From Platerodrilus igneus (lineage: Eukaryota > Arthropoda > Insecta > Coleoptera > Lycidae): a DNA stretch of 64,000 bases. The position numbers and the translations under genes were made by a program. A model generated the notes under the pieces. That model saw only the letters and a list, made by a program, of their open reading frames with translations, was not told where the DNA came from and did no database searches. Each line of letters begins with the position of its first letter. The first letter of the stretch is position 1. The stretch spans positions 879,501 to 943,500 of the forward strand of contig JARFIW010001186.1 in the NCBI GenBank assembly GCA_036346225.1, given 5' to 3'. Positions 5,007 to 56,420 of the stretch are shown in pieces.

Positions 5007-5019
5007 CAGGGTGTCTACT
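5007..5019 (+). repeat. hAT-like terminal inverted repeat, left
   Basis: CAGGGTGTCTACT, which pairs with 9091-9103 with one mismatch. Confidence 0.6.
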
Positions 5020-5032
5020 CGAACAACTGAAT

Positions 5033-5889: not shown

Positions 5890-6048
5890 GTTTTTCTGTA
5901 CTTTCCAGTACTTTAATTAAAAAATTCAGTACTTTTTGTTGCATGAAAAATGGAAAATAAGCGTGATCAAAATATTCAAATATTTTAATTAGTTAAAAGT
6001 GAATATACCTACATATTCAAGAATAAAGTGCATAGAAAATATTTTTAT

Positions 6049-29012: not shown

Positions 29013-29060
<48 letters not shown>

Positions 29061-29251
29061 TGATATTCTTAACCTTTTATTATGATAATATAAGAATTCT
29101 AATTTTTTCTTGGGTATTAAGGTCTAATGAACTATGTAAATTTTCAATAGGATGATTTATTTTTTATTAAACTCCAAACGTTTCGGCTGAACATATTAGC
29201 CTTTTTCAATGGATATTCATGTCTGAAAGTAGAATTACATAACTAACCAAA

Positions 29252-29282
<31 letters not shown>
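29012..29282 (-). mobile_element. Solo PLE pseudo-LTR between (TA)n tracts
   Basis: TA tracts at 29012-29055 and 29256-29282 enclose ~200 bp nearly identical to 34150-34345, the 5' pseudo-LTR of the minus-strand PLE. On the minus strand it holds a decayed hammerhead: GGCT...AGCCGAAACG fits stem II plus the GAAA box, but TTGAAAA stands where CTGATGA is required. Confidence 0.7.
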
Positions 29283-34138: not shown

Positions 34139-34347
34139 GCTTATTGATATAAATGATGATATTCTTGACCTTTTATTATCATAATATAAGAATTCTAATT
34201 TTTTCTTGGGTATTAAGGTCTAATGAACTATGTAAATTTTCAATAGGATGATTTATTTTTTATTAAACTCCAAACGTTTCGGCTGAACATATTAGCCTTT
34301 TTCAATGGATATTCATGTCTGAAAGTAGAATTACATAACTAACCAAA

Positions 34348-34349
<2 letters not shown>
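34139..34349 (-). repeat. PLE family 2 pseudo-LTR with decayed hammerhead
   Basis: Near-identical to 29056-29255. Minus strand: ATTGAAAAAGGCTAATATG, then TTCAGCCGAAACGTTTGG. Stem II (GGC/GCC) and GAAA are kept. C3 and G8 of the CTGANGA box are changed and stem I does not pair, so self-cleavage is not expected. Confidence 0.6.

Positions 34350-34393
<44 letters not shown>
34350..34393. repeat. (TA)n microsatellite
   Basis: It separates the minus-strand PLE 2 from the plus-strand PLE 3 fragment. Confidence 0.95.
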
Positions 34394-34396
<3 letters not shown>

Positions 34397-34398
34397 AA

Positions 34399-34744
34399 TT
34401 CAAATGCTAAGTCCATTGGAAACTTTTTTACTAAACTAAAAGAAAAAACAAATAAAGCTTTATGTAGCAATTTAGTGTATAAAATTCAATGTGAATGCAA
34501 AGCTTCCTACGTAGGCCAAACCAAACAGTGGCTCCGAAATCGCATGACACAACACAAAAGTGATGCAAAATTAGGAAAAACTTCTTGTGCTCTTTCTATA
34601 CATTTATACAATACAAAACACAAAGTCAATTATGATAATGTAAAAATTTTAGATATAGAAAGCAATTACAAAAAGACTTTTCTTAGAATCATTTCATATA
34701 AACCAAGAACAAAATTCCATCAATCACAAAGAAGACATCAATAA
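34399..34744 (+). pseudogene. PLE GIY-YIG endonuclease fragment, family 3
   Basis: Open from the (TA)n boundary; the first ATG is at 34475, but the frame extends upstream with SIGNFFTKLKEKTNKALC. VYKIQCECKASYVGQTKQWL is the GIY-YIG region with the Cys pair seen in PLE endonucleases, followed by RNRMTQHKSDAKLGK and IHLYNTKHKVNYDNVKILDI. It stops at 34744. The protein has no reverse transcriptase upstream, so it is a dead 5'-truncated copy. Confidence 0.85.
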
Positions 34745-35189
34745 TTTACATACAGTTTACTCATACCTATACACTTTTAATTCAAAAAATATACTAACTA
34801 TAATGATATTGCTTACACACAGAATTCCATTTAATTTAAGTCAAAAGTCAACCTGTTTACTACACCTGTAAAATATATGATTTTAAAATCTAACTATTTT
34901 ATGCAACCCACCATACAAAAATTTTTTACAAATAAACCACATACTACTATTTAAATAAAAAATATAATCAAATAGTGTCATAATTTGTTGTTTGATGTCA
35001 TCCTTGATCCTACATTTTGTCAAATAAGTGAACTGACATTTCATTCAAAATTAATTTTAATTCTTAATCAGTAATATGACAAGCTTCCTTCTGTTACTTT
35101 TATTATGGGTGAATACATAAAATAATTTTATCAAGTAATAAGTCAGTTAATCATATATTACCTGTTATATGAATTACCTATTTATATAC

Positions 35190-35260
35190 TTTTTCTTGTA
35201 GATCGATGATTAAGGTGTAAATTATCACCGAAACGTACGATTTAATACAAATGATACACA
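35190..35260 (+). ncRNA. Hammerhead-like motif, degenerate
   Basis: UUGUA and UACAA can form stem I. GGUG/CACC can form stem II. GAAACGUACGAU fits GAAA plus stem III. The box that should read CUGAUGA reads UCGAUGA and is separated from stem II by UUAA, so it is probably inactive. Confidence 0.35.
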
Positions 35261-35355
35261 TTTAATGTTTTGTGTTTAATTTATGAGCGACTTTATCCCA
35301 AGAACCAAAAACAAAATCTTTTCTAATTTAACTACGCTCCAGGATTATCAAGAAC

Positions 35356-35359
<4 letters not shown>

Positions 35360-35405
<46 letters not shown>
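35360..35405. repeat. (TA)n microsatellite
   Basis: About 22 TA units between PLE 3 and the inverted-repeat element. Confidence 0.95.
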
Positions 35406-38223: not shown

Positions 38224-38235
38224 ATTAATACTCAA
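38224..38235 (+). repeat. 12-bp target-site duplication, left
   Basis: ATTAATACTCAA, repeated at 43274-43285 around the PLE composite. Confidence 0.85.
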
Positions 38236-38271
38236 ATAAAATTAAATAAAAACCCTTGACCACAAAAATAT

Positions 38272-38326
38272 TTAAATTACTAAATACGTATTTCGACCAC
38301 TATGTGGCCATCATCAGTAGAAAACC
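38272..38326 (-). ncRNA. Minimal hammerhead ribozyme, PLE copy A
   Basis: Minus strand: CTGATGA (38317-38311), stem II GGCCAC/GTGGTC, GAAA (38294-38291), then ATACGTAT as self-complementary stem III and TT cleavage site. The outer stem I is UUCUA/UAGUAA. All core residues are present. Confidence 0.75.
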
Positions 38327-38584
38327 TGTATAAAAAAAAAAAAAAAAAAAAAAGCTGTTCTGGTATACTTCAGAGGATATTCTCCTCACCACTTAAGCTG
38401 AAGTGAACCTTCCCAACATATAATTTAGTATATTGTTGCTTTAAACACTATCGAGGATATTCTCCTCACCCGCAGGCTGGTGTTCTCAACAACAAACAAG
38501 TGAATTGTGACATTATAACTTAAATCTACTTAATTTATACTAATTCTAAACCTACTGAAGCGGAACCAGTTTAATCTTGCTTTC
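38327..38584 (-). other. PLE 1 copy A 3' untranslated region
   Basis: A poly-T run on the minus strand (38332-38354), then two copies of a GTGAGGAGAATATCCTC-type segment. Matches 40080-40320 and 42890-43140. Confidence 0.75.
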
Positions 38585-38969
38585 TCATTGGTTGTCGACC
38601 AATAGGGAAAGCAAAGCAAATGACTCTATTGGCCCTTTATCGGTGTTTAAGAGGGGTCCTTTATGTTTAACAATTTTAATTGATTCATAGGCATTTAAGG
38701 AGGAAAATGTTGGTACCGCTTTTAACAATTTAACATTTTCTAGTTTAACGGGGTGGCTGGTTTCAAATATATGTTTGGCGACCTGAGACCTTTCATATTT
38801 ACCATACTTGAAGTGAGCAATATGTTCTTTAAATCTTGTTGTTATATTCCTCTTGGTCTGACCAATATATTTTTGAAAACACCCTGGCCCTGCACAACTA
38901 ATTTCATAAATCCCCGACTTTTGCAATTTTTCCCCCTTGTCTTTTGGATTACCTAGCAAATCTTTAATT
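38585..38969 (-). pseudogene. PLE GIY-YIG endonuclease, copy A
   Basis: 124 codons plus a truncated start. GIYEISCAGPGCFQKYIGQT is the GIY-YIG signature with the Cys pair. RNITTRFKEHIAHFKYGKY and VAKHIFETSHPVKLENVKLL follow, then the catalytic Glu region NAYESIKIVKH. The reverse transcriptase is missing: the copy is cut within the linker and joined to an (ATTAGT)n tract. Confidence 0.9.
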
Positions 38970-39017
38970 TTATTAGTATGTATTAGTATTAGTATTATTA
39001 GTATTAGTATTAGTATT
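38970..39017. repeat. (TATTAG)n at the inverted PLE junction
   Basis: About seven imperfect TATTAG units between copies A and B. Copy A's own sequence at this point (ACTAATACTAATAAAATTAA on its strand) supplies the seed word. Confidence 0.8.
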
Positions 39018-39567
39018 AGTGAAAGTATGAAGGCACAGCAATGGGAAATAGCTTATCACCTTTCATAGCAAATTTATTTATGTCTCGTTTTGAAACCGAG
39101 TTAAAAGAAAACTCCAAATACTTCCCAAGAATATGGTTAAGGTACGTGGATGATATTTTTGCAGTTTTTGACACTTCTAAATCAAATGTTGATGATTTTC
39201 TTAAAGAAATGAATTCAAAATTTCAAAGCATAAAATTTACGTATGAACTAGAGAATAATGGACAATTACCCTTTTTAGATACATTAGTAATTAGAAAGGG
39301 TAATAAATTAGAATTTGACATTTATAGAAAAGAAACCAATGTAAATCGCTTTATTTTGTCTTCCTCTAATCATAGCATACAACATAAGTTGGCTTCATTT
39401 AACTTTTTAATTAATAGATTATTGAATTTCCTTTAAATAAAAACAGATTTAATAAAGAATTTGCTCTTATTAAACAAATAGCGAATTACAATGGTTTCTC
39501 TTCTGATATTATACATAATATTTTTAGAAAGTGTAAAAATAGGATCAACATACGTAAATCAACGACT
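39018..39567 (+). pseudogene. PLE reverse transcriptase C-terminal part, copy B
   Basis: The copy starts at TGAAGGCACAGCAATGGGAA. The 39041-39436 frame has MGNSLSPFIANLFMSRFE (motif B), WLRYVDDIFAVFD (motif C), and LPFLDTLVIRKG. A frameshift at about 39425 breaks the linker before the endonuclease. Confidence 0.9.
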
Positions 39568-40077
39568 TTGCAATCAACCACCTCTAACGATAATGTTAAA
39601 TATGTTAAACTTCCGTTTCACAAAACCACAAAGGGTCTTGATAAAATATTCAAACAGTGTAATTTCAAAATTGCTTTCACTAATACTAATAAAATTAAAG
39701 ATTTTCTAGGTAATCCAAAAGACAAGGGGGAAAAATTGCAAAAGTCGAGGATTTATGAAATTAGTTGTGCAGGGCCAGGGTGTTTTCAAAAATATATTGG
39801 TCAGACCAAGAGGAATATAACAACAAGATTTAAAGAACATATTGCTCACTTCAAATATGGTAAATATGAAAGGTCTCAGGTCGCCAAACATATATTTGAA
39901 ACCAGCCACCCCGTTAAACTAGAAAATGTTAAATTGTTAAAAGCGGTACCAACATTTTCCTCCTTAAATGCCTATGAATCAATTAAAATTGTTAAACATA
40001 AAGGACCCCTCTTAAACACCGATAAAGGGCCAATAGAGTCATCTGCTTTGCTTTCCCTATTGGTCAACAACCAATGA
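39568..40077 (+). CDS. PLE GIY-YIG endonuclease, copy B
   Basis: 169 codons, the longest intact endonuclease frame in the window. LPFHKTTKGLDKIFKQCNFK is the usual linker. IYEISCAGPGCFQKYIGQTK is the GIY-YIG core, with RFKEH (the catalytic-region Arg) and the later NAYESIK (Glu). It is nearly identical to copies A and C. The enzyme would nick target DNA so that reverse transcription can start there. Confidence 0.9.
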   Translation: MQSTTSNDNVKYVKLPFHKTTKGLDKIFKQCNFKIAFTNTNKIKDFLGNPKDKGEKLQKSRIYEISCAGPGCFQKYIGQTKRNITTRFKEHIAHFKYGKYERSQVAKHIFETSHPVKLENVKLLKAVPTFSSLNAYESIKIVKHKGPLLNTDKGPIESSALLSLLVNNQ

Positions 40078-40315
40078 GAAAGCAAGATTAAACTGGTTCC
40101 GCTTCAGTAGGTTTAGAATTAGTATAAATTAAGTAGATTTAAGTTATAATGTCACAATTCACTTGTTTGTTGTTGAGAACACCAGCCTGCCGGTGAGGAG
40201 AATATCCTCGATAGTGTTTAAAGCAACAATATAGTAAATTATAGGTTGGGAAGGTTCACTTCAGCCTAAGTGGTGAGGATAATATCCTCTGAAGTGTACC
40301 AGAACAACAGCTTTT

Positions 40316-40359
<44 letters not shown>

Positions 40360-40360
40360 G
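40078..40360 (+). other. PLE 1 copy B 3' untranslated region with (TA)n
   Basis: GTGAGGA(G/T)AATATCCTC segments, then a T run and (TA)n at 40311-40356 just before the hammerhead. The T/TA length differs in all three copies. Confidence 0.75.
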
Positions 40361-40412
40361 TTTTCTACTTATGATGGCCACATAGTGGTCGAAATACGTA
40401 TTTAGTAATTTA
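40361..40412 (+). ncRNA. Hammerhead ribozyme, PLE copy B, core mutation
   Basis: Same structure as copy C, but the core reads CTTATGA at 40368-40374: G5 is replaced by T. G5 is invariant in hammerheads, so cleavage should be lost. Confidence 0.7.
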
Positions 40413-40456
40413 AATATTTTTGTGGTCAAGGGTTTTTATTTAATTTTATTTAAATC

Positions 40457-41083
40457 GTGCCACAGTGTTTCTATAGATTATTAACTATGACTTCCCGGTC
40501 TTCGGAACTTAATAGGTATCGGAGCTTAGCTCTTAAAATTAGTTTTGTAAAAGCAGATATTCGATTTCTAAAAAGTTGTAAAGCCCACAAAGTTTTTCCA
40601 AATTTCATTAACGTAAAAATCAGCAGTAATTGTAAACGTAGTAACGCAATAATCAATTTTGCAAAAGATAAATGGCTTAATTTGGAAATCAAATATCTGT
40701 ACAGTAAGCTTAGTAGATTGGAACTGGAAACGTATAAATCGCACCTAGCACTAACGTGCAATTTATCCGAGTCCGGTTTTCAGGAATGGAATAATTTCCA
40801 GAGATTTGTTTTTGAAGTCGACAATCATAAATTGTTAGACAAAATTAATAGTCAAAACACTAAGTTGAAGTTTCTTTTAAAGAAACACAATGTCAATGTA
40901 CCTCCTAAAAAACTGGAAATTACTTCACCTCAATTAGAGTCAATAGTTGTTAACGAATCGTCGAAAATCTTTAATAATGAAGAGTTGACTTTCCTTGATC
41001 GAGGCCTAAAATTTGGAGTAGATCATTTGAAAACTCCTTTGGAAGACATTATTGCTGGCATTGAAAATCCATTTCAAAATTAG
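40457..41083 (+). CDS. PLE N-terminal region, copy C
   Basis: 208 codons; the likely start is ATG at 40487 (MTSRSSELNRYRSLALKI), since the earlier ATG lies in the pseudo-LTR. It is basic and helical, with LLKKHNVNVPPKKLE and EELTFLDRGLKFGVD, the latter a typical N-terminal PLE block ('LLxxGLKF'). It ends at a frameshift near 41080. Confidence 0.85.
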   Translation: MPQCFYRLLTMTSRSSELNRYRSLALKISFVKADIRFLKSCKAHKVFPNFINVKISSNCKRSNAIINFAKDKWLNLEIKYLYSKLSRLELETYKSHLALTCNLSESGFQEWNNFQRFVFEVDNHKLLDKINSQNTKLKFLLKKHNVNVPPKKLEITSPQLESIVVNESSKIFNNEELTFLDRGLKFGVDHLKTPLEDIIAGIENPFQN

Positions 41084-41879
41084 ATGACAATTCAAAAACT
41101 TTATTAGAAACGCGTGCAAAATTCAACTTTCGAACAACTTACGCACTTGCGCAAGGAATGTCTCAGAACAAACAAGGAAAGATCATCTGATTATTAAAGA
41201 TTTACGACAAAAGAATTGTTATTATTTAAAGGCTGATAAGGGGAATAGGTTGGTTATTCTGGATAAACAAGACTATGTTGATAGAGTAGAGACTTTGCTG
41301 TCTGAGGGTCCTTACAGACCAATAGTCAAAAACGTAAAATGAAGTTCCTTTAAATAAAATGATTAAATCAACACAGTCTGTTTTGAAAGAATGTCCAAAC
41401 CTAATTTCGCCCACACTAAAATTAAAATTAACAATTTCAAATCCTGAAATGCCAAAACTTTACTGTTTACCAAAGATTCACAAAATAATAAATCGATGAG
41501 ACCAATAGTTTCAGGTATCAACTCACCGACTTACTATTTATCACGATGGCTGTCAAATGAATTTAAGAATTTAAAGTTTAATAGTTTGTCTGTACAAAAC
41601 TCTTTAGAGTTCATTAATAAAATTAAAAATATCACATTAGAAGAGAACGAAATCTTAATTTCATTTGATGTCAGTTCATTATTCCCTAGTGTTCCAATAC
41701 CACGTACTTTAACATATTTAAAGGATGTTCTTATAGATAGTGATATTGATGATGATAAAGTTGAGAACTATATCAAGCTTGTTTCGCATTGCATGTCCCA
41801 GAACTGTTTTCAATTCAACAACAAGTTGTATGAACAACATGAAGGCACAGCAATGGAAATAACTTATCACCTTTCATAG
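41084..41879 (+). pseudogene. PLE reverse transcriptase N-terminal half, copy C
   Basis: In changing frames: LKADKGNRLVILDKQDYVDR (41230-41290), then from 41496 MRPIVSGINSPTYYLSRWL, motif A LISFDVSSLFPSVP, and QHEGTAMEI, where one lost G against copy B (GGGAA to GGAA near 41855) shifts the frame at motif B. The breaks lie at short homopolymers. Confidence 0.88.
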
Positions 41880-42377
41880 CAAATTTATTTATGTCTCGTT
41901 TTGAAACCGAGTTAAAAGAAAACTCCAAATACTTCCCAAGAATATGGTTAAGGTACGTAGATGATATTTTTACAGTTTTTGACACTTCTAAATCAAATGT
42001 TGATGATTTTCTTAAAGAAATGAATTCAAAATTTCAAAGCATAAAATTTACGTATGAACTAGAGAATAATGGACAATTACCCTTTTTAGATACATTAGTA
42101 ATTAGAAAGGGTAATAAATTAGAATTTGACATTTATAGAAAAGAAACCAATGTAAATCGCTTTATTTTGTCTTCCTCTAATCATAGCATACAACATAAGT
42201 TGGCTTCATTTAACTTTTAATTAATAGATTATTGAATTTCCTTTAAATAAAAACAGATTTAATAAAGAATTTGCTCTTATTAAACAAATAGCGAATTACA
42301 ATGGTTTCTCTTCTGATATTATAGATAATATTTTTAGAAAGTGTAAAAATAGGATCAACATACGTAAATCAACGACT
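41880..42377 (+). pseudogene. PLE reverse transcriptase C-terminal half, copy C
   Basis: 41891-42220 carries WLRYVDDIFTVFD (motif C) and FLDTLVIRKGNK, nearly identical to copy B. The linker to about 42377 is out of frame. Confidence 0.88.
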
Positions 42378-42870
42378 TTGCAATCAACCACCTCTAACGA
42401 TAATGTTAAATATGTTAAACTTCCGTTTCACAAAACCACAAAGGGTCTTGATAAAATATTCAAACAGTGTAATTTCAAAATTGCTTTCACTAATACTAAT
42501 AAAATTAAAGATTTGCTAGGTAATCCAAAAGACAAGGGGGAAAAATTGCAAAAGTCGGGGATTTATGAAATTAGTTGTGCAGGGCCAGGGTGTTTTCAAA
42601 AAATATATTGGTCAGACCAAGAGGAATATAACAACAAGATTTAAAGAACATATTGCTCACTTCAAATATGGTAAATATGAAAGGTCTCAGGTCGCCAAAC
42701 ATATATTTGAAACCAGCCACCCGTTAAACTAGAAAATGTTAAATTGTTAAAAGCGGTACCAACATTTTCCTCCTTAAATGCCTATGAATCAATTAAAATT
42801 GTTAAACATAAAGGACCCTCTTAAACACCGATAAAGGGCCAATAGAGTCATCTGCTTTGCTTTCCTATTG
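42378..42870 (+). pseudogene. PLE GIY-YIG endonuclease, copy C, frameshifted
   Basis: Same protein as copy B up to CAGPGCFQK. One extra A (CAAAAAATATATTGG near 42600) shifts the frame at the YIG motif; the rest continues to about 42870 in other frames, with further single-base losses near 42722 and 42817. Confidence 0.88.
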
Positions 42871-43155
42871 GTCAACAACCAATGAGAAAGCAAGATTAAA
42901 CTGGTTCCGCTTCAGTAGGTTTAGAATTAGTATAAATTAAGTAGATTTAAGTTATAATGTCACAATTCACTTGTTTGTTGTTGAGAACACCAGCCTGCGG
43001 GTGAGGAGAATATCCTCGATAGTGTTTAAAGCAACAATATAGTAAATTATAGGTTGGGAAGGTTCACTTCAGCCTAAGTGGTGAGGAGAATATCCTCTGA
43101 AGTGTACCAGAACAACAGCTTTTTTTTTTTTTTTTTTTTATATATATATATACAG
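42871..43155 (+). other. PLE 1 copy C 3' untranslated region
   Basis: Matches 40078-40360, with a longer T run (43121-43139) and a short TA run. Confidence 0.75.
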
Positions 43156-43210
43156 GTTTTCTACTGATGATGGCCACATAGTGGTCGAAATACGTATTTA
43201 GTAATTTAAA
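43156..43210 (+). ncRNA. Minimal hammerhead ribozyme, PLE copy C
   Basis: CTGATGA at 43164-43170, stem II GGCCAC/GTGGTC with loop ATA, GAAA at 43187-43190, stem III ATACGTAT with no loop, cleavage expected after T43198. Stem I pairs A43163-T43199, T43162-A43200 and C43161-G43201, then a mismatch and two A-T pairs. A loop-free stem III implies action as a dimer, as reported for PLE hammerheads. Confidence 0.8.
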
Positions 43211-43273
43211 TATTTTTGTGGTCAAGGGTTTTTATTTAATTTTATTTAAATCGTGCCAGTGTTCCTATAGATT

Positions 43274-43285
43274 ATTAATACTCAA
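43274..43285 (+). repeat. 12-bp target-site duplication, right
   Basis: ATTAATACTCAA, as at 38224-38235. Confidence 0.85.
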
Positions 43286-43289: not shown

Positions 43290-44946
43290 CACATAATCTA
43301 CTTAAATGTTCAAAGTATAATGTCTAATCAGTATCAATTAATGGCTGATGCAATGTGTTATAATCCTATGATAGTGTTGTCATCGGAAACTAAAGTAACT
43401 AATAATGTGGAAGACAAAGAAATTGCAATTGATAATTATATCTCAGTAAGATGTGACTCTATGAGCTGGCATACTGGAGGGATGTTAATTTATATTCGTA
43501 AGGACAATGATTTTAAGCATACAAAGAATATGTATTGGAACCAAATTATTGGTGTAAAGCTGTGAAAGTGTTATTATTTGGGTCACTATGGATCATAGGA
43601 GTGTTATATCACTCCCCAAGTACAAGTGATGCAGTGTTTCTGAATAACTTTGAAGAATGGAGTGAAAACTTATTTAATACAAACCTACGATGTATTATAG
43701 CGGGAGATTTCAATTTAAATTATGAGAATAGGGGTAATTACTATGTAAAAAAGTTAAGTAATTTCATTAGGGTAAATAGTATACAGCAATTAATTACAGA
43801 GCCTACTAGAATTGTACAAAATAGTTCAACGTTAATTGACTATATCTTAACTAATGCTAAACAAGTCAGGGCTATTGTCCATCTGACACCAATAATAACT
43901 GATCACAATATTATATCAGTAACAATTACTAAAGAAAATAAACACTATAATACTAATAACCAAATAAGTCAATTCAAAAACCTAAATGATGCAGCCATTC
44001 ACCGAATAAACCTAAGACTTTTAAAATGTACGTGGAAATTTGACAACACAAATGTTGATATAATTCTGAATGATATACTAAATAATGTTACACATGCGTT
44101 AGACCATGAAGCTCCTATTCGAAGCAAATTTCAACCACATCACTGTTTAAAGTGGTATGACAATGAAGTGTGTGTCAAAGCTAAAGAAAGGGACTTTGCT
44201 TATAAAAAATTCAAGTTCGATAAATGTGCTGTAAACTGGAAAGATTATAAAACATGTAGAAATCAATTTGTTAATTTATTGAAGAGGAATGAAAAAGAAT
44301 TTTATGAAAAACAAATTGACAATAACAGAAGAGATAGCACTAAAATGTGGAAAATATTAAAAATGTTAATTAGTAATAAAGAAAATAATTGTGACATACA
44401 AAGAGTACAATTTAAAAATAATCGTAATAAAATCATTATGAGAGAACAAAAGAATATAGCTGAACATTTAAATGACTACTTTGTGAACAGCATTGAAGAT
44501 ATTGTAAGAAATATCCCAGACACTAATAATCTATATCGACTAAACCCATTGGGCAGCCACAATATCAAACTTACTGAATTTAAATTGTTAGCTTTACATG
44601 ATATAAAAAAAATTGTGGATAATCTACCTAACAAGTGTAACTGGTCAGATACAGTAAACACAAAAGTAATTAAGGCAACCTATTTAACAATGAAATTTTT
44701 AAAATTATCAATGGATTACTGCCAAGTTATTTTGATGAGTTTATTGTTTATGCCAACCAAATACATAACCACAAAACTAGGTCACAACGCAAATTACATG
44801 TTGCAAGGACCAAATTGAAAAAGACTATGAATTCAATATTCTTCAAAGTTCTGATTAAATATAATACTTTACCAAAAGATATTCGAGACCGTAATACATT
44901 GATATCTTTTAAATGGAAATTAATGAAAAAATTAAAACCTAACTAA
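43290..44946 (+). pseudogene. LINE ORF2: endonuclease, RT deleted
   Basis: The first piece (to 43565) has YLNVQSIMSNQYQLMAD, SSETKV and TGGMLIYIR, the N-terminal half of an apurinic endonuclease. After a frameshift near 43560 the second piece (to 44818) has IGVLYHSPSTSD, IIAGDFNLNYENRG with the catalytic Asp, STLIDYILTN, and PIITDHNIISVTI with the catalytic D-H. A charged linker follows (LKRNEKEFYEKQI). Where the reverse transcriptase should begin, the sequence jumps near 44690 to the C-terminal tail (KKTMNSIFFKVLIKYNTLP, ending at 44946). The RT is therefore missing by internal deletion and the copy cannot move itself. Confidence 0.82.

Positions 44947-45998: not shown

Positions 45999-46031
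<33 letters not shown>
45999..46031. repeat. (TA)n at the left end of the ribozyme array
   Basis: About 16 TA units directly joined to AAAACAAGTTATTTGCAG, the first bases of the satellite. Confidence 0.95.
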
Positions 46032-46035
<4 letters not shown>

Positions 46036-46200
46036 CAAGTTATTTGCAGTCCGCAATAAGAAAATGTATATAAAGTAAGATGTATCTGTAAACAAGCTCT
46101 TATGAAAATAATAAGAGCCATTGACAAATACAAATCGGGCTGGTAGTTATATAGCCATTAACAAAACATTAGCTTTATTAATTCATAGGGGAGGAAACAT

Positions 46201-46242
46201 CCACTGACCAATGGTTTCGGCTTGTTAGCCTCATCAGAGTGG
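46201..46242 (-). ncRNA. Hammerhead ribozyme, unit 1
   Basis: Minus strand: stem I CCACT/AGTGG, CTGATGA, stem II GGCT-AACA-AGCC, GAAA, stem III CC-ATT-GG, cleavage triplet GTC. All core residues are present. Confidence 0.9.
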
Positions 46243-46709
46243 ACTGTTCCCAAGAACCCTATGAAGTAATCGAAGCTATTATAATGATATAATTTCGAAA
46301 CAATCACTGTACTATGGCAAAAGTAAATAAAACCGCCATCAGGTGATAAAACACCAACACTACTAAAGTGTGGAAGTACAGAATTGAACCGAAACTACAT
46401 AATAAATTTTAAAAATGACTATAAAAGTACGTTGGGCCTTTGAGATTTGCGGAATCTTACAGCAAAATTTATTTGCTAACGTAACAAGCCTTCTCGTGGC
46501 GACACCCGGGTTCATGCCCCATAGGCAATTCAAATAAACAAAGACAAGTTATTTGCAGTCCGCAATAAGAAAATGTATATAAAGTAAGATGTATCTGTAA
46601 ACAAGCTCTTATGAAAATAATAAGAGCCATTGACAAATACAAATCGGGCTGGTAGTTATATAGCCATTAACAAAACATTAGCTTTATTAATTCATAGGGG
46701 AGGAAACAT

Positions 46710-46751
46710 CCACTGACCAATGGTTTTGGCTTGTTAGCCTCATCAGAGTGG
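46710..46751 (-). ncRNA. Hammerhead ribozyme, unit 2, G12 mutated
   Basis: GAAA box reads AAAA (plus strand TGGTTTTGG). G12 is the general base, so this unit should not cleave. Confidence 0.85.
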
Positions 46752-47217
46752 ACTGTTCCCAAGAACCCTATGAAGTAATCGAAGCTATTATAATGATATA
46801 ATTTCGAAACAATCACTGTACTATGGCAAAAGTAAATAAAACCGCCATCAGGTGATAAAACACCAACACTACTAAAGTGTGGAAGTACAGAATTGAACCG
46901 AAACTACATAATAAATATTAAAAATGACTATAAAAGTACGTTGGGCCTTTGAGATTTGTGGAATGTTACAGCAAAATTTATTTGCTAACGTAACAAACCT
47001 TCTCGTGGCGACACCCGGATTCATGCCCCATAGGCAATTCAAATAAACAAAGACAAGTTATTTGCAGTCCGCAATAAGAAAATGTATATAAAGTAAGATG
47101 TATCTGTAAACAAGCTCTTATGAAAATAATAAGAGCCATTGACAAATACAAATCGGGCTGGTAGTTATATAGCCATTAACAAAACATTAGCTTTATTAAT
47201 TCATAGGGAGGAAACAT

Positions 47218-47259
47218 CCACTGACCAATGGTTTCGGCTTGTTAGCCTCATCAGAGTGG
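47218..47259 (-). ncRNA. Hammerhead ribozyme, unit 3
   Basis: Intact core and stems as in unit 1. Confidence 0.9.
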
Positions 47260-47723
47260 ACTGTTCCCAAGAACCCTATGAAGTCAATCGAAGCTATTAT
47301 AATGATATAATTTCGAAACAATCACTGTACTATGGCAAAAGTAAATAAAACCGCCATCAGGTGATAAAACACCAACACTACTAAAGTGTGGAAGTACAGA
47401 ATTGAACCGAAACTACATAATAAATTTTAAAATGACTATAAAAGTACGTTGGGCCTTTGAGATTTGCGGAATGTTACAGCAAAATTTATTTGCTAACGTA
47501 ACAAACCTTCTCGTGGCGACACCGGGTTCATGCCCCATAGGCAATTCAAATAAACAAAGACAAGTTATTTGCAGTCCGCAATAAGAAAATGTATATAAAG
47601 TAAGATGTATCTGTAAACAAGCTCTTATGAAAATAATAAGAGCCATTGACAAATACAAATCGGGCTGGTAGTTATATAGCCATTAACAAAACATTAGCTT
47701 TATTAATTCATAGGAGGAAACAT

Positions 47724-47764
47724 CCACTGACCAATGGTTTCGCTTGTTAGCCTCATCAGAGTGG
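47724..47764 (-). ncRNA. Hammerhead ribozyme, unit 4, stem II base lost
   Basis: One G/C pair member of stem II is missing (plus strand TTTCGCTTG), which weakens stem II. It lies at the edge of a poorly resolved stretch and may be an assembly error. Confidence 0.75.
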
Positions 47765-47859
47765 ACTGTTCCCAAGAACCCTATGAAGTAATCGAAGCTA
47801 TTATAATGATATAATTTCGAAACAATCACTGTACTATGGCAAAAGAAATAAAACGCACA

Positions 47860-48190
47860 GGAAAAACAATCTAAAGTGAAAAATTGACCGAAACTAATAA
47901 TTTTAAAACTAAAAAAGTGGGCTTTGATTTCGGAATTAAGAAAATTTATTTGTAAGTAACAAACATCTCTGGAAACGGTTATCCCAAGGCAATTCAAATA
48001 AACAAAGCAAGTTATTTAGCCCAATAAAAAATGTATTAAAGAAGAATCTAAACAAGTTTTGAAATATAAGCCATTGAGATCCAAACGTGAAGTAATAAGC
48101 CATTAAATGATATAATTTGAAAAACATACTGGCAAAAGTAATAAACCGCCTAGGTATAAAACAACTCAAATGAAGTAGAATTAACCGAAA
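47860..48190 (-). repeat. Degraded unit with many single-base losses
   Basis: A unit-like order of words, with dozens of small deletions (for example GCAAGTTATTTAGCCC) between intact units. The pattern is unlike ordinary substitution decay and suggests a poor consensus. Confidence 0.7.
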
Positions 48191-48498
48191 CTACATAATA
48201 AATTTAAAAATGACTATAAAAACGTTGGGCCTTTGAGATTTGCGGAATGTTACAGCAAAATTTATTTGCTAACGTAACAAACCTTCTCGGCGACACGGGT
48301 TCATGCCCCATAGGCAATTCAAATAAACAAAGACAAGTTATTTGCAGTCCGCAATAAGAAAATGTATATAAAGTAAGATGTATCTGTAAACAAGCTCTTA
48401 TGAAAATAATAAGAGCCATTGACAAATACAAATCGGGCTGGTAGTTATATAGCCATTAACAAAACATTAGCTTTATTAATTCATAGGGGAGGAAACAT

Positions 48499-48540
48499 CC
48501 ACTGACCAATGGTTTCGGCTTGTTAGCCTCATCAGAGTGG
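48499..48540 (-). ncRNA. Hammerhead ribozyme
   Basis: Intact core and stems. Confidence 0.9.
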
Positions 48541-49004
48541 ACTGTTCCCAAGAACCCTATGAAGTAATCGAAGCTATTATAATGATATAATTTCGAAACA
48601 ATCACTGTACTATGGCAAAAGTAAATAAAACCGCCATCAGGTGATAAAACACCAACACTACTAAAGTGTGGAAGTACAGAATTGAACCGAAACTACATAA
48701 TAAATTTTAAAATGACTATAAAAGTACGTTGGGCCTTTGAGATTTGCGGAATGTTACAGCAAAATTTATTTGCTAACGTAACAAACCTTCTCGTGGCGAC
48801 ACCGGGTTCATGCCCCATAGGCAATTCAAATAAACAAAGACAAGTTATTTGCAGTCCGCAATAAGAAAATGTATATAAAGTAAGATGTATCTGTAAACAA
48901 GCTCTTATGAAAATAATAAGAGCCATTGACAAATACAAATCGGGCTGGTAGTTATATAGCCATTAACAAAACATTAGCTTTATTAATTCATAGGGAGGAA
49001 ACAT

Positions 49005-49046
49005 CCACTGACCAATGGTTTCGGCTTGTTAGCCTCATCAGAGTGG
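49005..49046 (-). ncRNA. Hammerhead ribozyme
   Basis: Intact core and stems. Confidence 0.9.
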
Positions 49047-49511
49047 ACTGTTCCCAAGAACCCTATGAAGTAATCGAAGCTATTATAATGATATAATTTC
49101 GAAACAATCACTGTACTATGGCAAAAGTAAATAAAACCGCCATCAGGTGATAAAACACCAACACTACTAAAGTGTGGAAGTACAGAATTGAACCGAAACT
49201 ACATAATAAATTTTAAAATGACTATAAAAGTACGTTGGGCCTTTGAGATTTGCGGAATGTTACAGCAAAATTTATTTGCTAACGTAACAAACCTTCTCGT
49301 GGCGACACCGGGTTCATGCCCCATAGGCAATTCAAATAAACAAAGACAAGTTATTTGCAGTCCGCAATAAGAAAATGTATATAAAGTAAGATGTATCTGT
49401 AAACAAGCTCTTATGAAAATAATAAGAGCCATTGACAAATACAAATCGGGCTGGTAGTTATATAGCCATTAACAAAACATTAGCTTTATTAATTCATAGG
49501 GGAGGAAACAT

Positions 49512-49553
49512 CCACTGACCAATGGTTTCGGCTTGTTAGCCTCATCAGAGTGG
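49512..49553 (-). ncRNA. Hammerhead ribozyme
   Basis: Intact core and stems. Confidence 0.9.
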
Positions 49554-49724
49554 ACTGTTCCCAAGAACCCTATGAAGTAATCGAAGCTATTATAATGATA
49601 TAATTTCGAAACAATCACTGTACTATGGCAAAAGTAAATAAAACCGCCATCAGGTGATAAAACACCAACACTACTAAAGTGTGGAAGTACAGAATTGAAC
49701 CGAAACTACATAATAAAATTAAAA

Positions 49725-50585
49725 ACAAAAATACTTGGCTTGAGTTGGAATTACAAAATTTATGTAACTAAAAATTCTGACAACGTTGCCCCTGAATTAA
49801 ATCTCAGATAAAAATTGACGATATCAAAAATAAAAATACCAAAAAAAAAATAATAAAAAAAAAAAACCCGATAAAAAAATTTCAAAAAAAAAAATAAAAA
49901 CTAAAAGGGTCTAAAATTTTATGGGAACCAGTTGTTCGTCCAACCAAATAATTAAAGAAAAAAAACCGAAACAAAGAATACAAAAATTTAAAAAATGGCT
50001 TTTGATAAATTTTAAAACTGCGGTCCCGATAAAAAAATTTCAAAAAAAAAAATAAAAACTAAAAGGGTCTAAAATTTTATGGGAACCAGTTGTTCGTCCA
50101 ACCAAATAATTAAAGAAAAAAAACCGAAACAAAGAATACAAAAATTTAAAAAATGGCTTTTGATAAATTTTAAAACTGCGGTCCCGATAAAAAAATTTCA
50201 AAAAAAAAAATAAAAACTAAAAGGGTCTAAAATTTTATGGGAACCAGTTGTTCGTCCAACCAAATAATTAAAGAAAAAAAACCGAAACAAAGAATACAAA
50301 AATTAAAAAATGGCTTTTGGATAAATTTTAAAACTGCGTCCCGATAAAAAAATTTCAAAAAAAAAAATAAAAACTAAAAGGGTCTAAAATTTTATGGGGA
50401 ACCAGTTGTTCGTCCAACCAAATAATTAAAGAAAAAAAACCGAAACAAAGAATACAAAAATTTAAAAAATGGCTTTTGATTAAATTTTAAAACTGCGGTC
50501 CCGATAAAAAAATTTCAAAAAAAAAAATAAAAACTAAAAGGGTCTAAAATTTTATGGGAACCAGTTGTTCGTCCAACCAAATAAT
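49725..50585. repeat. A-rich ~158-bp tandem repeat inside the array
   Basis: CCCGATAAAAAAATTTC recurs at 49867, 50025, 50183, 50340 and 50500. The unit also contains GGGAACCAGTTGTTCGTCC and many A runs. Bases 49725-49866 look like a scrambled satellite unit. The flanks return abruptly to normal satellite at 50587 (ATCGGGCTGG). Confidence 0.8.
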
Positions 50586-50651
50586 ATCGGGCTGGTAGTT
50601 ATATAGCCATTAACAAAACATTAGCTTTATTAATTCATAGGGAGGAAACAT

Positions 50652-50693
50652 CCACTGACCAATGGTTTCGGCTTGTTAGCCTCATCAGAGTGG
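50652..50693 (-). ncRNA. Hammerhead ribozyme
   Basis: Intact core and stems. Confidence 0.9.
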
Positions 50694-51160
50694 ACTGTTC
50701 CCAAGAACCCTATGAAGTAATCGAAGCTATTATAATGATATAATTTCGAAACAATCACTGTACTATGGCAAAAGTAAATAAAACCGCCATCAGGTGATAA
50801 AACACCAACACTACTAAAGTGTGGAAGTACAGAATTGAACCGAAACTACATAATAAATTTTAAAAATGACTATAAAAGTACGTTGGGCCTTTGAGATTTG
50901 CGGAATGTTACAGCAAAATTTATTTGCTAACGTAACAAACCTTCTCGTGGCGACACCCGGGTTCATGCCCCATAGGCAATTCAAATAAACAAAGACAAGT
51001 TATTTGCAGTCCGCAATAAGAAAATGTATATAAAGTAAGATGTATCTGTAAACAAGCTCTTATGAAAATAATAAGAGCCATTGACAAATACAAATCGGGC
51101 TGGTAGTTATATAGCCATTAACAAAACATTAGCTTTATTAATTCATAGGGGAGGAAACAT

Positions 51161-51202
51161 CCACTGACCAATGGTTTCGGCTTGTTAGCCTCATCAGAGT
51201 GG
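51161..51202 (-). ncRNA. Hammerhead ribozyme
   Basis: Intact core and stems. Confidence 0.9.
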
Positions 51203-51664
51203 ACTGTTCCCAAGAACCCTATGAAGTAATCGAAGCTATTATAATGATATAATTTCGAAACAATCACTGTACTATGGCAAAAGTAAATAAAACCGCCATC
51301 AGGTGATAAAACACCAACACTACTAAAGTGTGGAAGTACAGAATTGAACCGAAACTACATAATAAATTTTAAAATGACTATAAAAGTACGTTGGGCCTTT
51401 GAGATTTGCGAATTTACAGCAAAATTTATTTGCTAACGTAACAAACCTTCTCGTGGCGACACCGGGTTCATGCCCCATAGGCAATTCAAATAAACAAAGA
51501 CAAGTTATTTGCAGTCCGCAATAAGAAAATGTATATAAAGTAAGATGTATCTGTAAACAAGCTCTTATGAAAATAATAAGAGCCATTGACAAATACAAAT
51601 CGGGCTGGTAGTTATATAGCCATTAACAAAACATTAGCTTTATTAATTCATAGGGAGGAAACAT

Positions 51665-51706
51665 CCACTGACCAATGGTTTCGGCTTGTTAGCCTCATCA
51701 GAGTGG
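51665..51706 (-). ncRNA. Hammerhead ribozyme
   Basis: Intact core and stems. Confidence 0.9.
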
Positions 51707-52170
51707 ACTGTTCCCAAGAACCCTATGAAGTAATCGAAGCTATTATAATGATATAATTTCGAAACAATCACTGTACTATGGCAAAAGTAAATAAAACCGC
51801 CATCAGGTGATAAAACACCAACACTACTAAAGTGTGGAAGTACAGAATTGAACCGAAACTACATAATAAATTTTAAAATGACTATAAAAGTACGTTGGGC
51901 CTTTGAGATTTGCGGAATGTTACAGCAAAATTTATTTGCTAACGTAACAAACCTTCTCGTGGCGACACCGGGTTCATGCCCCATAGGCAATTCAAATAAA
52001 CAAAGACAAGTTATTTGCAGTCCGCAATAAGAAAATGTATATAAAGTAAGATGTATCTGTAAACAAGCTCTTATGAAAATAATAAGAGCCATTGACAAAT
52101 ACAAATCGGGCTGGTAGTTATATAGCCATTAACAAAACATTAGCTTTATTAATTCATAGGGAGGAAACAT

Positions 52171-52212
52171 CCACTGACCAATGGTTTCGGCTTGTTAGCC
52201 TCATCAGAGTGG
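52171..52212 (-). ncRNA. Hammerhead ribozyme
   Basis: Intact core and stems. Confidence 0.9.
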
Positions 52213-52674
52213 ACTGTTCCCAAGAACCCTATGAAGTAATCGAAGTATTATAATGATATAATTTCGAAACAATCACTGTACTATGGCAAAAGTAAATAAA
52301 ACCGCCATCAGGTGATAAAACACCAACACTACTAAAGTGTGGAAGTACAGAATTGAACCGAAACTACATAATAAATTTTAAAATGACTATAAAAGTACGT
52401 TGGGCCTTTGAGATTTGCGGAATGTTACAGCAAAATTTATTTGCTAACGTAACAAACCTTCTCGTGGCGACACCGGGTTCATGCCCCATAGGCAATTCAA
52501 ATAAACAAAGACAAGTTATTTGCAGTCCGCAATAAGAAAATGTATATAAAGTAAGATGTATCTGTAAACAAGCTCTTATGAAAATAATAAGAGCCATTGA
52601 CAAATACAAATCGGGCTGGTAGTTATATAGCCATTAACAAAACATTAGCTTTATTAATTCATAGGGAGAAACAT

Positions 52675-52716
52675 CCACTGACCAATGGTTTCGGCTTGTT
52701 AGCCTCATCAGAGTGG
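52675..52716 (-). ncRNA. Hammerhead ribozyme
   Basis: Intact core and stems. Confidence 0.9.
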
Positions 52717-53178
52717 ACTGTTCCCAAGAACCCTATGAAGTAATCGAAGCTATTATAATGATATAATTTCGAAACAATCACTGTACTATGGCAAAAGTAA
52801 ATAAAACCCATCAGGTGATAAAACACCAACACTACTAAAGTGTGGAAGTACAGAATTGAACCGAAACTACATAATAAATTTTAAAATGACTATAAAAGTA
52901 CGTTGGGCCTTTGAGATTTGCGAATGTTACAGCAAAATTTATTTGCTAACGTAACAAACCTTCTCGTGGCGACACCGGGTTCATGCCCCATAGGCAATTC
53001 AAATAAACAAAGACAAGTTATTTGCAGTCCGCAATAAGAAAATGTATATAAAGTAAGATGTATCTGTAAACAAGCTCTTATGAAAATAATAAGAGCCATT
53101 GACAAATACAAATCGGGCTGGTAGTTATATAGCCATTAACAAAACATTAGCTTTATTAATTCATAGGGGAGGAAACAT

Positions 53179-53220
53179 CCACTGACCAATGGTTTCGGCT
53201 TGTTAGCCTCATCAGAGTGG
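53179..53220 (-). ncRNA. Hammerhead ribozyme
   Basis: Intact core and stems. Confidence 0.9.
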
Positions 53221-53683
53221 ACTGTTCCCAAGAACCCTATGAAGTAATCGAAGCTATTATAATGATATAATTTCGAAACAATCACTGTACTATGGCAAAA
53301 GTAAATAAAACCGCCATCAGGTGATAAAACACCAACACTACTAAAGTGTGGAAGTACAGAATTGAACCGAAACTACATAATAAATTTTAAAATGACTATA
53401 AAAGTACGTTGGGCCTTTGAGATTTGCGGAATGTTACAGCAAAATTTATTTGCTAACGTAACAAACCTTCTCGTGGCGACACCGGGTTCATGCCCCATAG
53501 GCAATTCAAATAAACAAAGACAAGTTATTTGCAGTCCGCAATAAGAAAATGTATATAAAGTAAGATGTATCTGTAAACAAGCTCTTATGAAAATAATAAG
53601 AGCCATTGACAAATACAAATCGGGCTGGTAGTTATATAGCCATTAACAAAACATTAGCTTTATTAATTCATAGGGAGAAACAT

Positions 53684-53725
53684 CCACTGACCAATGGTTT
53701 CGGCTTGTTAGCCTCATCAGAGTGG
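53684..53725 (-). ncRNA. Hammerhead ribozyme
   Basis: Intact core and stems. Confidence 0.9.
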
Positions 53726-54146
53726 ACTGTTCCCAAGAACCCTATGAAGTAATCGAAGCTATTATAATGATATAATTTCGAAACAATCACTGTACTATGG
53801 CAAAAGTAAATAAAACCGCCATCAGGTGATAAAACACCAACACTACTAAAGTGTGGAAGTACAGAATTGAACCGAAACTACATAATAAATTTTAAAATGA
53901 CTATAAAAGTACGTTGGGCCTTTGAGATTTGCGGAATGTTACAGCAAAATTTATTTGCTAACGTAACAAACCTTCTCGTGGCGACACCGGGTTCATGCCC
54001 CATAGGCAATTCAAATAAACAAAGACAAGTTATTTGCAGTCCGCAATAAGAAAATGTATATAAAGTAAGATGTATCTGTAAACAAGCTCTTATGAAAATA
54101 ATAAGAGCCATTGACAAATACAAATCGGGCTGGTAGTTATATAGCC

Positions 54147-55959
54147 TCAACAACTTTTTAGTCTTTTATAAATTTATTATGGAGTTCGTTCAATCTGTAC
54201 TCCACATTTAGGTTTGGTTTTTACTCATCGATGGGTTTTTACTTTCCCATAGAACCCATGAGTTCGAAATTATAATTATAATTTCGATACATCATGGTCT
54301 TGGCAAAGTCAATAGTAAAACCGAACCATGTCAGGTGATTAAACCCAAATATAAAGATGTTTTGAAGGTAAAATTACACCTTGATTAAGCTCTATTATTT
54401 ATAAATTTTAAACATACTTAAAAGTACTTGGTCTTTGATTTGCGGATGTCAAAAATTTTTTGTAATAATCCTTGGGCGACACCCGGTTCAGCCCATAGGT
54501 TTTAATTAACAAAAAATTTTTGACATTCCGCAAATAAAGGCCAAATTATGTATTTTAAAATAAATGTATTCGGTAACAATCTGTATAAATATAGAGTTGT
54601 GTTTACAAATAATGGGCGGTTTATTATTGCCATTAAGTATTTTAAATTATCATTTATATTATTCATAGGGTTTGGAAACATCCACTCTAGATGGTGTTCA
54701 TAGCGAAACTCATGTCAGTGGATTGTTTCAATCCTATAATATAATTTCGAAACATCATGTTCTTGGAAAGTATAATAACAACCGCCATCATGTGATTTAT
54801 CAATGCCTATAATTATAAAGCTTGTGTTAAGTACATAACTTTAACCGATTTTCTATGGACTCATAATAAACTTGTTTAGAAATACTTTAAATCTTGGGCT
54901 TATTTGGATTACACAAAATTTTTGTACGTACAAACCTCCGTGCGACACGGTTGTTCTTGCCCAATAGCAATTTTCAAATCAAACAAAGCAAGTTTTTAGT
55001 CCATTAAAAATTTATTAAAGTAAGTGTATCTGTATCAACTTAAGTTTTGAAATAATAAGAGCGTTCATTGACAAATACAAATCGGGCTGGTAGTTAATAT
55101 AGCCATTACATACATTAGCTTTATTAATTCATAGGGTAGAACATCCATCTGTACTACCAACTTTAGTAGTTTCCTGCTTGATTATCATCTGAGTGGTTTT
55201 TTACTGTTGCCATAGAACCCAGCTGATTATTTGTAATCGAAGCTATTATATATTATAAAGTTGATTACAATCACTGTACTATGGAAAAGTATTATAGTAA
55301 AACCGAACCATTGTCATGGTGATTAACCTACCAGACACTATAAAGCTGTTGGAATGTACAATGAATTGACACCAGAAATGCTACTTATTATTTATAAATT
55401 TTCAAACATTACTATAAAAGTACGTTGGCTTTAGATTTGCGGAATGTTACACAAAATTTATTTGTAATCTAAAAACCTTCTGTGGCAGACACCGGGTTCA
55501 TGCCCCATAGGCATATTTTCAAATAAACAAAGACAAGTTATTTGACAGTCCGCAATCAAGGCCAACATTTATGTATTATAAATGTAAGATGTATTCTGTA
55601 AACAAGCTCTTATGAAAATAATAAGAGCCATGTGTTTACAAACAAATCGGGCTGGTTTAGTTATATAGCCTAACGTACTATAGCATTGTTTAAATATTCA
55701 TTATATAGTGATACTCAAGGTTCTGGACTCCACACTGAGTGTTGGCTTTTAGCCAATCATCTGAGTGGACGTTTCTCCCATGAACTTAATGAAAGTAAGT
55801 TTGTAATGCTATTAACTACACCGATTATATATTTCAATAGCTCTATTATTTTGCATAAGAGTAATTTTAACAGATCCATCTGTGACTTAATACATTTCTT
55901 TGCAGGACCAAATAACTTGAGCTTTGTTTGGAATTGTCCTAGGGCATGAACCGTTGCAA
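54147..55959. repeat. Garbled satellite DNA mixing both orientations
   Basis: Forward words (CAAATCGGGCTGG, AAACAAGCTCTTATG) alternate with inverse words (TTATAAATTTATTATG, CTTTGCCATAG-like) and with many indels. No intact hammerhead is seen. It lies exactly between the forward array and the inverted terminal unit, where a long-read consensus of an inverted repeat would fail. Confidence 0.7.
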
Positions 55960-56373
55960 AAGTAATGTTACGTTAGCAAATAAATTTTGCTGTAACATTC
56001 CGCAAATCTCAAAGGCCCAACGTACTTTTATAGTCATTTTTAAAATTTATTATGTAGTTTCGGTTCAATTCTGTACTTCCACACTTTAGTAGTGTTGGTG
56101 TTTTATCACCTGATGGCGGTTTTATTTACTTTGCCATAGTACAGTGATTGTTTCGAAATTATATCATTATAATAGCTCGATTACTTCATAGGGTTCTTGG
56201 GAACAGTCCACTCTGATGAGGCTAACAAGCCGAAACCATTGGTCAGTGGATGTTTCCTCCCCTATGAATTAATAAAGCTAATGTTTTGTTAATGGCTATA
56301 TAACTACCAGCCCGATTTGTATTTGTCAATGGCTCTTATTATTTTCATAAGAGCTTGTTTACAGATACATCTT

Positions 56374-56377
<4 letters not shown>
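55960..56377 (+). repeat. Inverted terminal satellite unit
   Basis: One clean unit (about 418 bp) in the opposite orientation to the array, from GTAATGTTACGTTAGC to CTTACTTTATATA. It stops at the unit's own TATATA word, where it joins (TA)n. Confidence 0.88.
56208..56249 (+). ncRNA. Hammerhead ribozyme, inverted unit
   Basis: CTGATGA at 56213-56219, stem II 56220-56231, GAAA at 56232-56235, stem III CC/GG, cleavage expected after C56244. Stem I CCACT/AGTGG can extend outward: TTCATAGGG upstream pairs with CCCTATGAA downstream. Confidence 0.9.

Positions 56378-56420
<43 letters not shown>
56378..56420. repeat. (TA)n at the right end of the ribozyme array
   Basis: About 20 TA units, mirroring the tract at the left end. 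Confidence 0.95.

Follow-up and report, generated by a model that had tools for sequence, protein, structure and literature searches.

A non-coding hammerhead retrozyme of the beetle Platerodrilus igneus, probably mobilised by Penelope-like machinery

A tandem unit carrying a hammerhead ribozyme is repeated over about 10 kb within a 64,000-nt stretch of the Platerodrilus igneus genome (contig JARFIW010001186.1, positions 879,501 to 943,500; hereafter the window), which raises the question of what kind of element this is and how it came to be there. For the route of animal retrozymes back into DNA, the excerpts of PMC7229834 and PMC7761336 relevant here point to Penelope-like elements (PLEs) as probable helpers, but give no structural link (papers are cited throughout for excerpts of their text). 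From its insertion anatomy, we propose, with a probability of roughly 0.68, that the element, which we call RZ1, is an animal retrozyme that encodes no protein and owes its mobility to PLE machinery. The unit, put at about 506 bp by an earlier reading of the window's letters (the first-pass annotation), indeed measures 504-510 bp and fills 46.03-56.4 kb. The GC fraction of the array is 0.31-0.35 in 2-kb windows, below the 50% bound for metazoan retrozymes without long terminal repeats (LTRs), and the array contains no stop-to-stop open reading frame (ORF) of at least 130 aa.

The array is one insertion flanked by two (TA)n tracts. RZ1 occupies 46032-56386, between a left target tract at 45999-46031 and a right one at 56378-56420, which overlaps the element's final bases, themselves TATATA. 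A long left arm consists of head-to-tail units of about 506 bp with the ribozyme sense on the minus strand, while the last ~620 bp (55764-56386, plus strand) form a short right arm in the opposite sense. The motif CTGATGAG occurs 16 times across the window, against 0.83 expected from shuffles, and 15 of the 16 occurrences lie inside the array, 14 on the minus strand and 1 on the plus strand. Unit coordinates (u) refer to the minus-strand unit at 52176-52679, in which u1 is the first nucleotide past the predicted ribozyme cut and u504 the last. On this scale, the left outer end (46030-46060, minus strand) passes into (TA)n at about u173-179, the 'tail' end, and the right outer end (56350-56378, plus strand) does so at about u131-140, the 'no-tail' end. 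Degraded stretches, delimited by eye at about 47840-48200, 49716-50585 and 54145-55950, may reflect decay or consensus error. At 49867-50585, inside the array, 4.5 repeats of a 158-bp A-rich unit (98% match) may likewise be a consensus artefact.

We then scanned strictly for the ribozyme, requiring a CTGANGA core, GAAA, U-H and stems I, II and III of at least 4, 3 and 2 bp, respectively; this gave 13 hammerheads in the array and none elsewhere in the window. Perfect type I hammerheads were thus found in 13 of the 15 array copies bearing CTGATGAG. Twelve are on the minus strand, at 46199-46244 (predicted cut between 46205 and 46206), 47216-47261, 48497-48542, 49003-49048, 49510-49555, 50650-50695, 51159-51204, 51663-51708, 52169-52214, 52673-52718, 53177-53222 and 53682-53727, and one, at 56206-56251 on the plus strand, belongs to the inverted arm at the right end. 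The first-pass annotation had placed a minus-strand hammerhead in nearly every copy, which fits these twelve, but the last copy is inverted. The two imperfect copies, at 46746 and 47759, have AAAA in place of GAAA and a stem II short of one base, respectively. The type I features present include the CUGANGA core, GAA, stem II, an A-U-closed stem III, H17 and an open stem I. Stem I extends over 7 bp up to its first interruption and stem II over 4 bp, and stem III consists of two C-G pairs and a closing A-U pair with an AUU loop, as the extra A-U pair of the scan would leave a one-base loop. We take the closing pair to be A15.1-U16.1 in hammerhead position numbering. The proposed extension of stem I through TTCATAGGG/CCCTATGAA was recovered when the 111-nt minus-strand segment 46170-46280 was folded, with a free energy of -44.6 kcal/mol (z -5.84) that was equalled by 0 of 200 shuffles.

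A second family, RZ2, allowed the ribozyme to be compared between relatives. RZ2 was found adjoining an RZ1 copy in a locus elsewhere in the genome (L012, positions 3762-6001; further copies in L047 and L048), and is homologous to RZ1 along the whole unit, with an estimated 58% of columns identical and a unit of mostly 509-519 bp. Pairs were counted outward from the core, since aligning five ribozymes with MAFFT had put the 3' side of stem I in the wrong place. As a result, 10 pairs of stems I and II were formed in both families, 6 of them changed on both sides and 4 identical, and the seventh pair of stem I was present in RZ1 only. The ribozyme structure is thus conserved in sequence comparison through compensatory change between two families, and the type I identity claimed at first reading holds, with a core common to both. 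Stem III of RZ2 is the palindromic ACUAGU, and may require a dimer, as described for minimal PLE hammerheads (PMC7761336). Among the matches listed by the RZ2 search (187, with 40 of 1,339 candidates scored), RZ2 was more diverse than RZ1.

The 2.71-Gb genome was next searched for RZ1. The exact 30-nt core occurs 1,288 times (670 + 618), against 0 for the reversed control, and the first 100 of these cores lie at about 63 separate places. Core neighbours within 3 kb (57 of the first 100 rows) were oriented minus-minus in 14 cases, minus-plus in 13, plus-plus in 10 and plus-minus in 0, and the opposite-strand neighbours were therefore head to head in 13/13. For closer reading, 38 best-match regions were fetched, a sample that favours young, clean copies; together with the two window loci, and with two contiguous regions joined, this gave 39 loci. 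(TA)n follows at least one scored end in 39/39, where the scoring itself demanded TA after the anchor, and TA tracts of at least 16 nt account for 0.64% of the window when the array is set aside. The (TA)n on both sides of the insertions would mask any target-site duplication. Some flanks are common to several loci (for example L020, L038, L045 and L046; L022 and L023), and the target sites are not all independent because some of these flanks are shared host repeats. Two such host-repeat flanks were noted, CAGCA-(TA)n at L009, L017 and L021, and CCCTGGTCTAAATATGAGTAA-(TA)n at L020, L038, L045 and L046. A search for empty sites, as uninterrupted (TA)n copies of the CAGCA...TGCTG host repeat, found none, and an exact RZ1 23-mer gave 0 matches in IMG/VR and 0 in GTDB genomes, as expected of an animal element. 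On this sequence evidence, RZ1 is a dispersed mobile element rather than a local satellite. The first-pass annotation was right about the tandem units and, judging from the conserved core and the dispersed copies with mobile-element ends, about a retrozyme-like nature, but 'satellite' is the poorer name, because the 39 loci are separate insertions in (TA)n and the exact cores are dispersed. The inverted arm, the role of (TA)n as target, the two fixed ends and the connection with PLEs go beyond that annotation. A small decayed copy also lies in the window at 3436-3608, between (AT)n at 3391-3424 and (TA)n at 3598-3631.

The outer ends of these insertions follow a rule. In the 39 loci, the 3' ends in ribozyme sense point outward and the heads meet in the middle, and in all 23 loci that were two-ended by strict scoring, one end fell at u131-140 and the other at u173-179, with the 140 end on the left in 13 and on the right in 10. 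If ends were independent, the chance of 23/23 mixed pairs would be 0.5^23, about 1e-7. Strict scoring of the remaining loci gave 11 with the 140 end only, 4 with the 179 end only, and the composite L012. Reading by hand added L016, L020, L023 and L012 to the mixed class and brought it to 27; of the other loci, none is like-with-like, 3 are odd, 8 have a single arm and 1 is open (L035, which runs off its stretch); the rule is thus obeyed in 27/30 two-armed loci with both ends placed. No poly-A was seen at the RZ1 ends of the scored loci as read. Of the 29 head junctions outside the window, which are all different, 8 show an overlap of 3-14 nt between the two heads and 12 one of 1-2 nt; in the other 9 there is none. 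RZ2 behaves similarly among the matches listed: 39 of its 43 outer ends fall into two main clusters, 18 at v136-146 and 21 at v175-189 in RZ2 unit positions, with 4 at v156-167 and the 3' side outward in the matches listed, and 6 of the 9 elements with both ends are mixed, 2 pair a no-tail with an intermediate end and 1 is like-with-like. Four RZ2 ends (2 elements) were read letter by letter, and all pass into TA repeats, one of them short. In open-licence PubMed Central records searched by title and abstract opening, the two-end rule was not reported for a retrozyme.

Such ends are known from PLEs. In PLEs, reverse transcriptase (RT) has two adjacent internal start sites; these account for an optional 'tail' of 30-40 nt and are described as a signature unique to PLEs, and integration involves cutting and extension of both strands at an AT-rich target (PMC11167929). 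Pen2a_Av, a PLE of Adineta vaga, has an inverted pseudo-LTR (pLTR) with a 31-bp tail on one end (PMC3846280). The window holds its own positive control for the two-end rule, PLE-B (38234-43273, plus strand), which carries RT and GIY-YIG-like pieces and is not part of RZ1. PLE-B is a head-to-head insertion with a partial tandem copy: its inverted left piece has the no-tail end, its right end bears a tail of 26 nt, and a 12-bp target duplication, ATTAATACTCAA, bounds it at 38224-38235 and 43274-43285. The GAAA of a putative degenerate hammerhead, recognised by eye, precedes the two ends of PLE-B by 61 and 87 nt, and in two further PLEs of the window, PLE-A and PLE-C, a ribozyme-like motif seen by eye lies about 117 and 119 nt from (TA)n; in RZ1, the distances from ribozyme cut to start are 131-140 and 173-179 nt. 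Compared in this way, PLEs and RZ1 may share an order of ribozyme, two start sites and AT-rich target.

Further observations concern these PLEs. The terminal repeats of PLE-A (29051-29282 and 34147-34378; 232 bp, 98% identical) each stand beside (TA)n, and one resembles a solo copy; a hammerhead-like motif, GGCTAATATGTTCAGCCGAAACG, was noted in them by eye. The best-scoring named relatives of PLE-A are from beetles (Coccinella, Sitophilus), followed by mosquitoes, a sawfly, beetles (Cylas, Callosobruchus, Pyrocoelia) and ants. PLE-C is a fragment (34343-35405, plus strand) with a GIY-YIG match between two (TA)n tracts, and has a hammerhead-like motif by eye near 35230. By tblastn, pieces of PLE RT or GIY-YIG were seen within a few kb of the RZ1 insertions L013, L022, L039, L042 and L044. 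Short blast matches of RZ1 and RZ2 to PLE termini (E 0.01-0.55) were taken as chance.

We then asked what had served as template, using variants among 190 units and fragments of at least 95% identity and at least 120 nt, with u8-18, u129-141 and u172-181 excluded. As a result, 17 variant sites were fixed across all of an element's units where at least three were present, compared with a mean of 0.29 (maximum 2) in 500 shuffles of the element labels. The other variants at positions covered by at least three units comprised 88 in a single unit, 6 in all but one and 7 in between. By arm, 19 variants occurred in both arms, and of 15 tests on variants fixed in one arm, 14 found the variant in every unit of the other arm (12 of 13 after double-counted elements were merged), against 6.5% in units of other elements. 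In the window element, 13/13 minus-strand units and the inverted unit carry u108 T>C, which is absent from all 145 units elsewhere. Because private variants are thus mostly common to all units and to both arms, one monomer appears to have templated each insertion, and most insertions seem to have passed through one monomer. Furthermore, 51 of the 58 arms of 29 elements exceed 180 nt, and therefore read through the predicted cut site, and 24 exceed 684 nt (the spans of L012 and L037 include spacers). One monomer for both arms, together with arms that cross the cleavage site, points to circular templates, and a self-cleaved, closed monomer, that is, a circular RNA, would most simply provide one. 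The heads cluster at u1-25 (12/58) and u52-75 (11/58), possibly through RNA structure or ribozyme-cut 5' ends.

A mechanism for RZ1 has to accommodate the unit, the ribozyme structure, the TA target, the outward 3' ends, the two starts used one each and the homogeneity of most inserts, all of them read from the genome itself. We suggest that a tandem copy would be transcribed on the ribozyme strand and that its hammerheads would cleave the transcript into monomers of about 506 nt, which would be closed into circles. A Penelope-like RT/endonuclease acting in trans would open a (TA)n tract, and the RNA would be primed at two adjacent sites separated by about 40 nt, the first about 131-140 nt and the second about 173-179 nt downstream of the cut. 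Each side of the DNA break would prime at one site, both would run around one shared circle, often for more than one lap, and the two cDNA heads would then be joined, sometimes through short microhomology, to give partial and whole units head to head. The most specific part of this proposal, a 'two-site, one-circle' target-primed reverse transcription in which a single RNA circle is copied simultaneously from both sides of the break with a different start on each, is put forward tentatively, at somewhat less than even odds.

The alternative that competes most directly with the circle keeps the same element and a PLE-type enzyme, and supposes that a homogeneous array is transcribed into a linear multimer, which serves as the template. 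A multimeric template suffices for multi-unit arms, and the Anolis PLE used unprocessed RNA in vitro, where ribozyme cleavage was not needed (PMC11167929). However, a mutation arises in one unit, and its fixation in all daughter units and in both arms needs one monomer; mixed units would also be expected, yet middle-frequency variants number only the 7 given above, beside 17 fixed, 6 all-but-one and 88 single-unit variants. We therefore regard a linear multimer as unlikely. Local amplification in an ordinary satellite, grown by unequal exchange and carrying its ribozyme as a relic, would yield within-array homogeneity as well, and some arms do reach a dozen tandem units or more (L038 and the window element); post-insertion growth may have lengthened the largest arrays, such as the window's. 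The dispersed inserts with fixed ends in (TA)n, the variants common to opposite arms and the ribozyme kept by compensatory change disfavour this explanation, which we consider improbable.

Head-to-head inserts also call to mind the machinery of long interspersed nuclear elements (LINEs, non-LTR). Twin priming by L1 yields head-to-head inverted inserts with microhomology, and those of RZ1 resemble such products; the window, moreover, contains a LINE-like endonuclease ORF (Exo_endo_phos) at 43517-44818, and twin priming is mentioned in PMC2837659. Against ordinary twin priming stand the two adjacent internal starts, a PLE-only signature according to PMC11167929, the ends as read without poly-A, the (TA)n target, and a rule that held in 27/30 two-armed loci, and a LINE origin thus appears no more probable than a satellite one. 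Finally, long-read misassembly could in principle have made inverted arms or extra units, as inverted repeats are prone to it and the deletion-type differences of the degraded window units suggest local consensus error. The same ends and arrangement recur, however, at numerous loci, which lie on different contigs and have junctions that differ, and they recur in RZ2; this makes an artefact very improbable.

Several findings weigh against the preferred reading of RZ1 as a retrozyme mobilised by PLE machinery from circular monomers. One concerns the ribozyme: among two results that the first-pass annotation had named as speaking against a hammerhead was a low score in Rfam models, and indeed the Rfam hammerhead check gave 0 matches at gathering score, the best relaxed match, to Hammerhead_3, reaching 22 bits where the gathering score is 48.5. 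We weigh this miss lightly, because the covariation between RZ1 and RZ2 is direct evidence of a conserved structure, and Rfam is a weak test for this hammerhead variant. The link to PLEs is affected by the degenerate state of the PLE hammerheads, which were recognised by eye; a relaxed scan outside the array gave only chance-like rows, and none of the three motifs. No PLE sharing the start-site region of RZ1 was found either, as a profile of RZ1 and RZ2 gave 0 matches in the masked window and the fetched loci, PLEs included. Furthermore, the no-tail start of RZ1, TTTATATA, matches the TA target, and annealing alone might thus fix that start, unlike the Anolis PLE, whose start site lacks homology to the DNA that is cut (PMC11167929).

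The ends and the variants also have exceptions. The second end is off-site at L033 (u93), at L028 (u150) and in the small decayed window copy at about 3.4 kb (u97), and after L037 comes an additional piece in opposite order. Among the RZ2 matches listed, C848 is the like-with-like element, and C170 and C376 have the intermediate ends, while the RZ2 array in L012 stops at v159 without TA. Six variants occur in at least two units of one arm only, compared with the 19 in both arms; two variant types occur together in L014 (4 of 9 units), and L023, whose arms differ, does not pass the arm-sharing test. In addition, 5/58 heads are no more than 5 nt away from the cut site, against 1.2 expected, and since such heads are enriched, some templates may be cut linear RNAs.

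Among known systems, the metazoan non-LTR retrozymes (Cervera and de la Pena 2020, PMC7229834) resemble RZ1 as non-coding tandem repeats with type I hammerheads, and the excerpts name insects as hosts, without detail. Their units measure 150-450 bp, compared with 504-519 bp for RZ1 and RZ2, and circles of 150 to >1000 nt are also named in the discussion. That paper calls PLEs 'a strong candidate' for retrozyme mobilisation, and 'inverted' occurs 0 times in its main text, whereas here the insertion anatomy is resolved into (TA)n, head-to-head arms, two starts and mostly one monomer. PLEs such as Poseidon of Anolis (PMC11167929) and Pen2a (PMC3846280) share with RZ1 the tail and no-tail starts, the AT-rich target and the head-to-head ends, and in the Anolis PLE a hammerhead lies upstream of the start sites, as in RZ1. 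PLEs encode an RT and GIY-YIG protein, whereas RZ1 encodes nothing by the ORF limit given above, and its hammerhead, with a 3-pair stem III, is more canonical than the minimal PLE form (PMC7761336). The pDo500 repeat of Dolichopoda cave crickets (463-505 bp; PMC2837043) is similar to RZ1 in having one hammerhead per unit and compensatory stem changes; it is described as satellite DNA, without insertion ends in the excerpts, and the comparison is by description only. Plant LTR retrozymes (PMC4918200) are non-autonomous and combine a hammerhead with circular RNA, as proposed for RZ1, but differ in their type III hammerhead, LTRs, primer-binding site, polypurine tract and 4-bp target-site duplications (PMC7229834), and use other machinery.

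The transposons around the array are insect-like and include a copia RT (RVT_2), a DUF1759 ORF that is probably BEL/Pao, and the PLEs with RVT_1 and GIY-YIG matches. Direct repeats of 284 bp (9351-9634 and 13658-13941; 99.3% identical) around the copia-type RT are probably the LTRs of a young copia element, and those of 243 bp (17051-17293 and 23261-23503; 99.6% identical) around the DUF1759 ORF are probably the LTRs of a young BEL/Pao element.

For the retrozymes, the ends of RZ1 and RZ2 supply a structural link to PLEs, and the shared variants provide genome-based evidence for an RNA monomer, most simply a circle, as the template of transposition. The two-site, one-circle scheme, if true, would explain both the one-each pairing of tail and no-tail ends and the private variants common to both arms, and it would explain head-to-head PLE copies with one tail in general. 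The pairing of one start of each kind suggests that in PLEs, too, both primings may occur on one RNA molecule. What would set RZ1 apart among animal retrozymes is thus an anatomy that ties it to a Penelope-type RT, copying most likely from a single circle.

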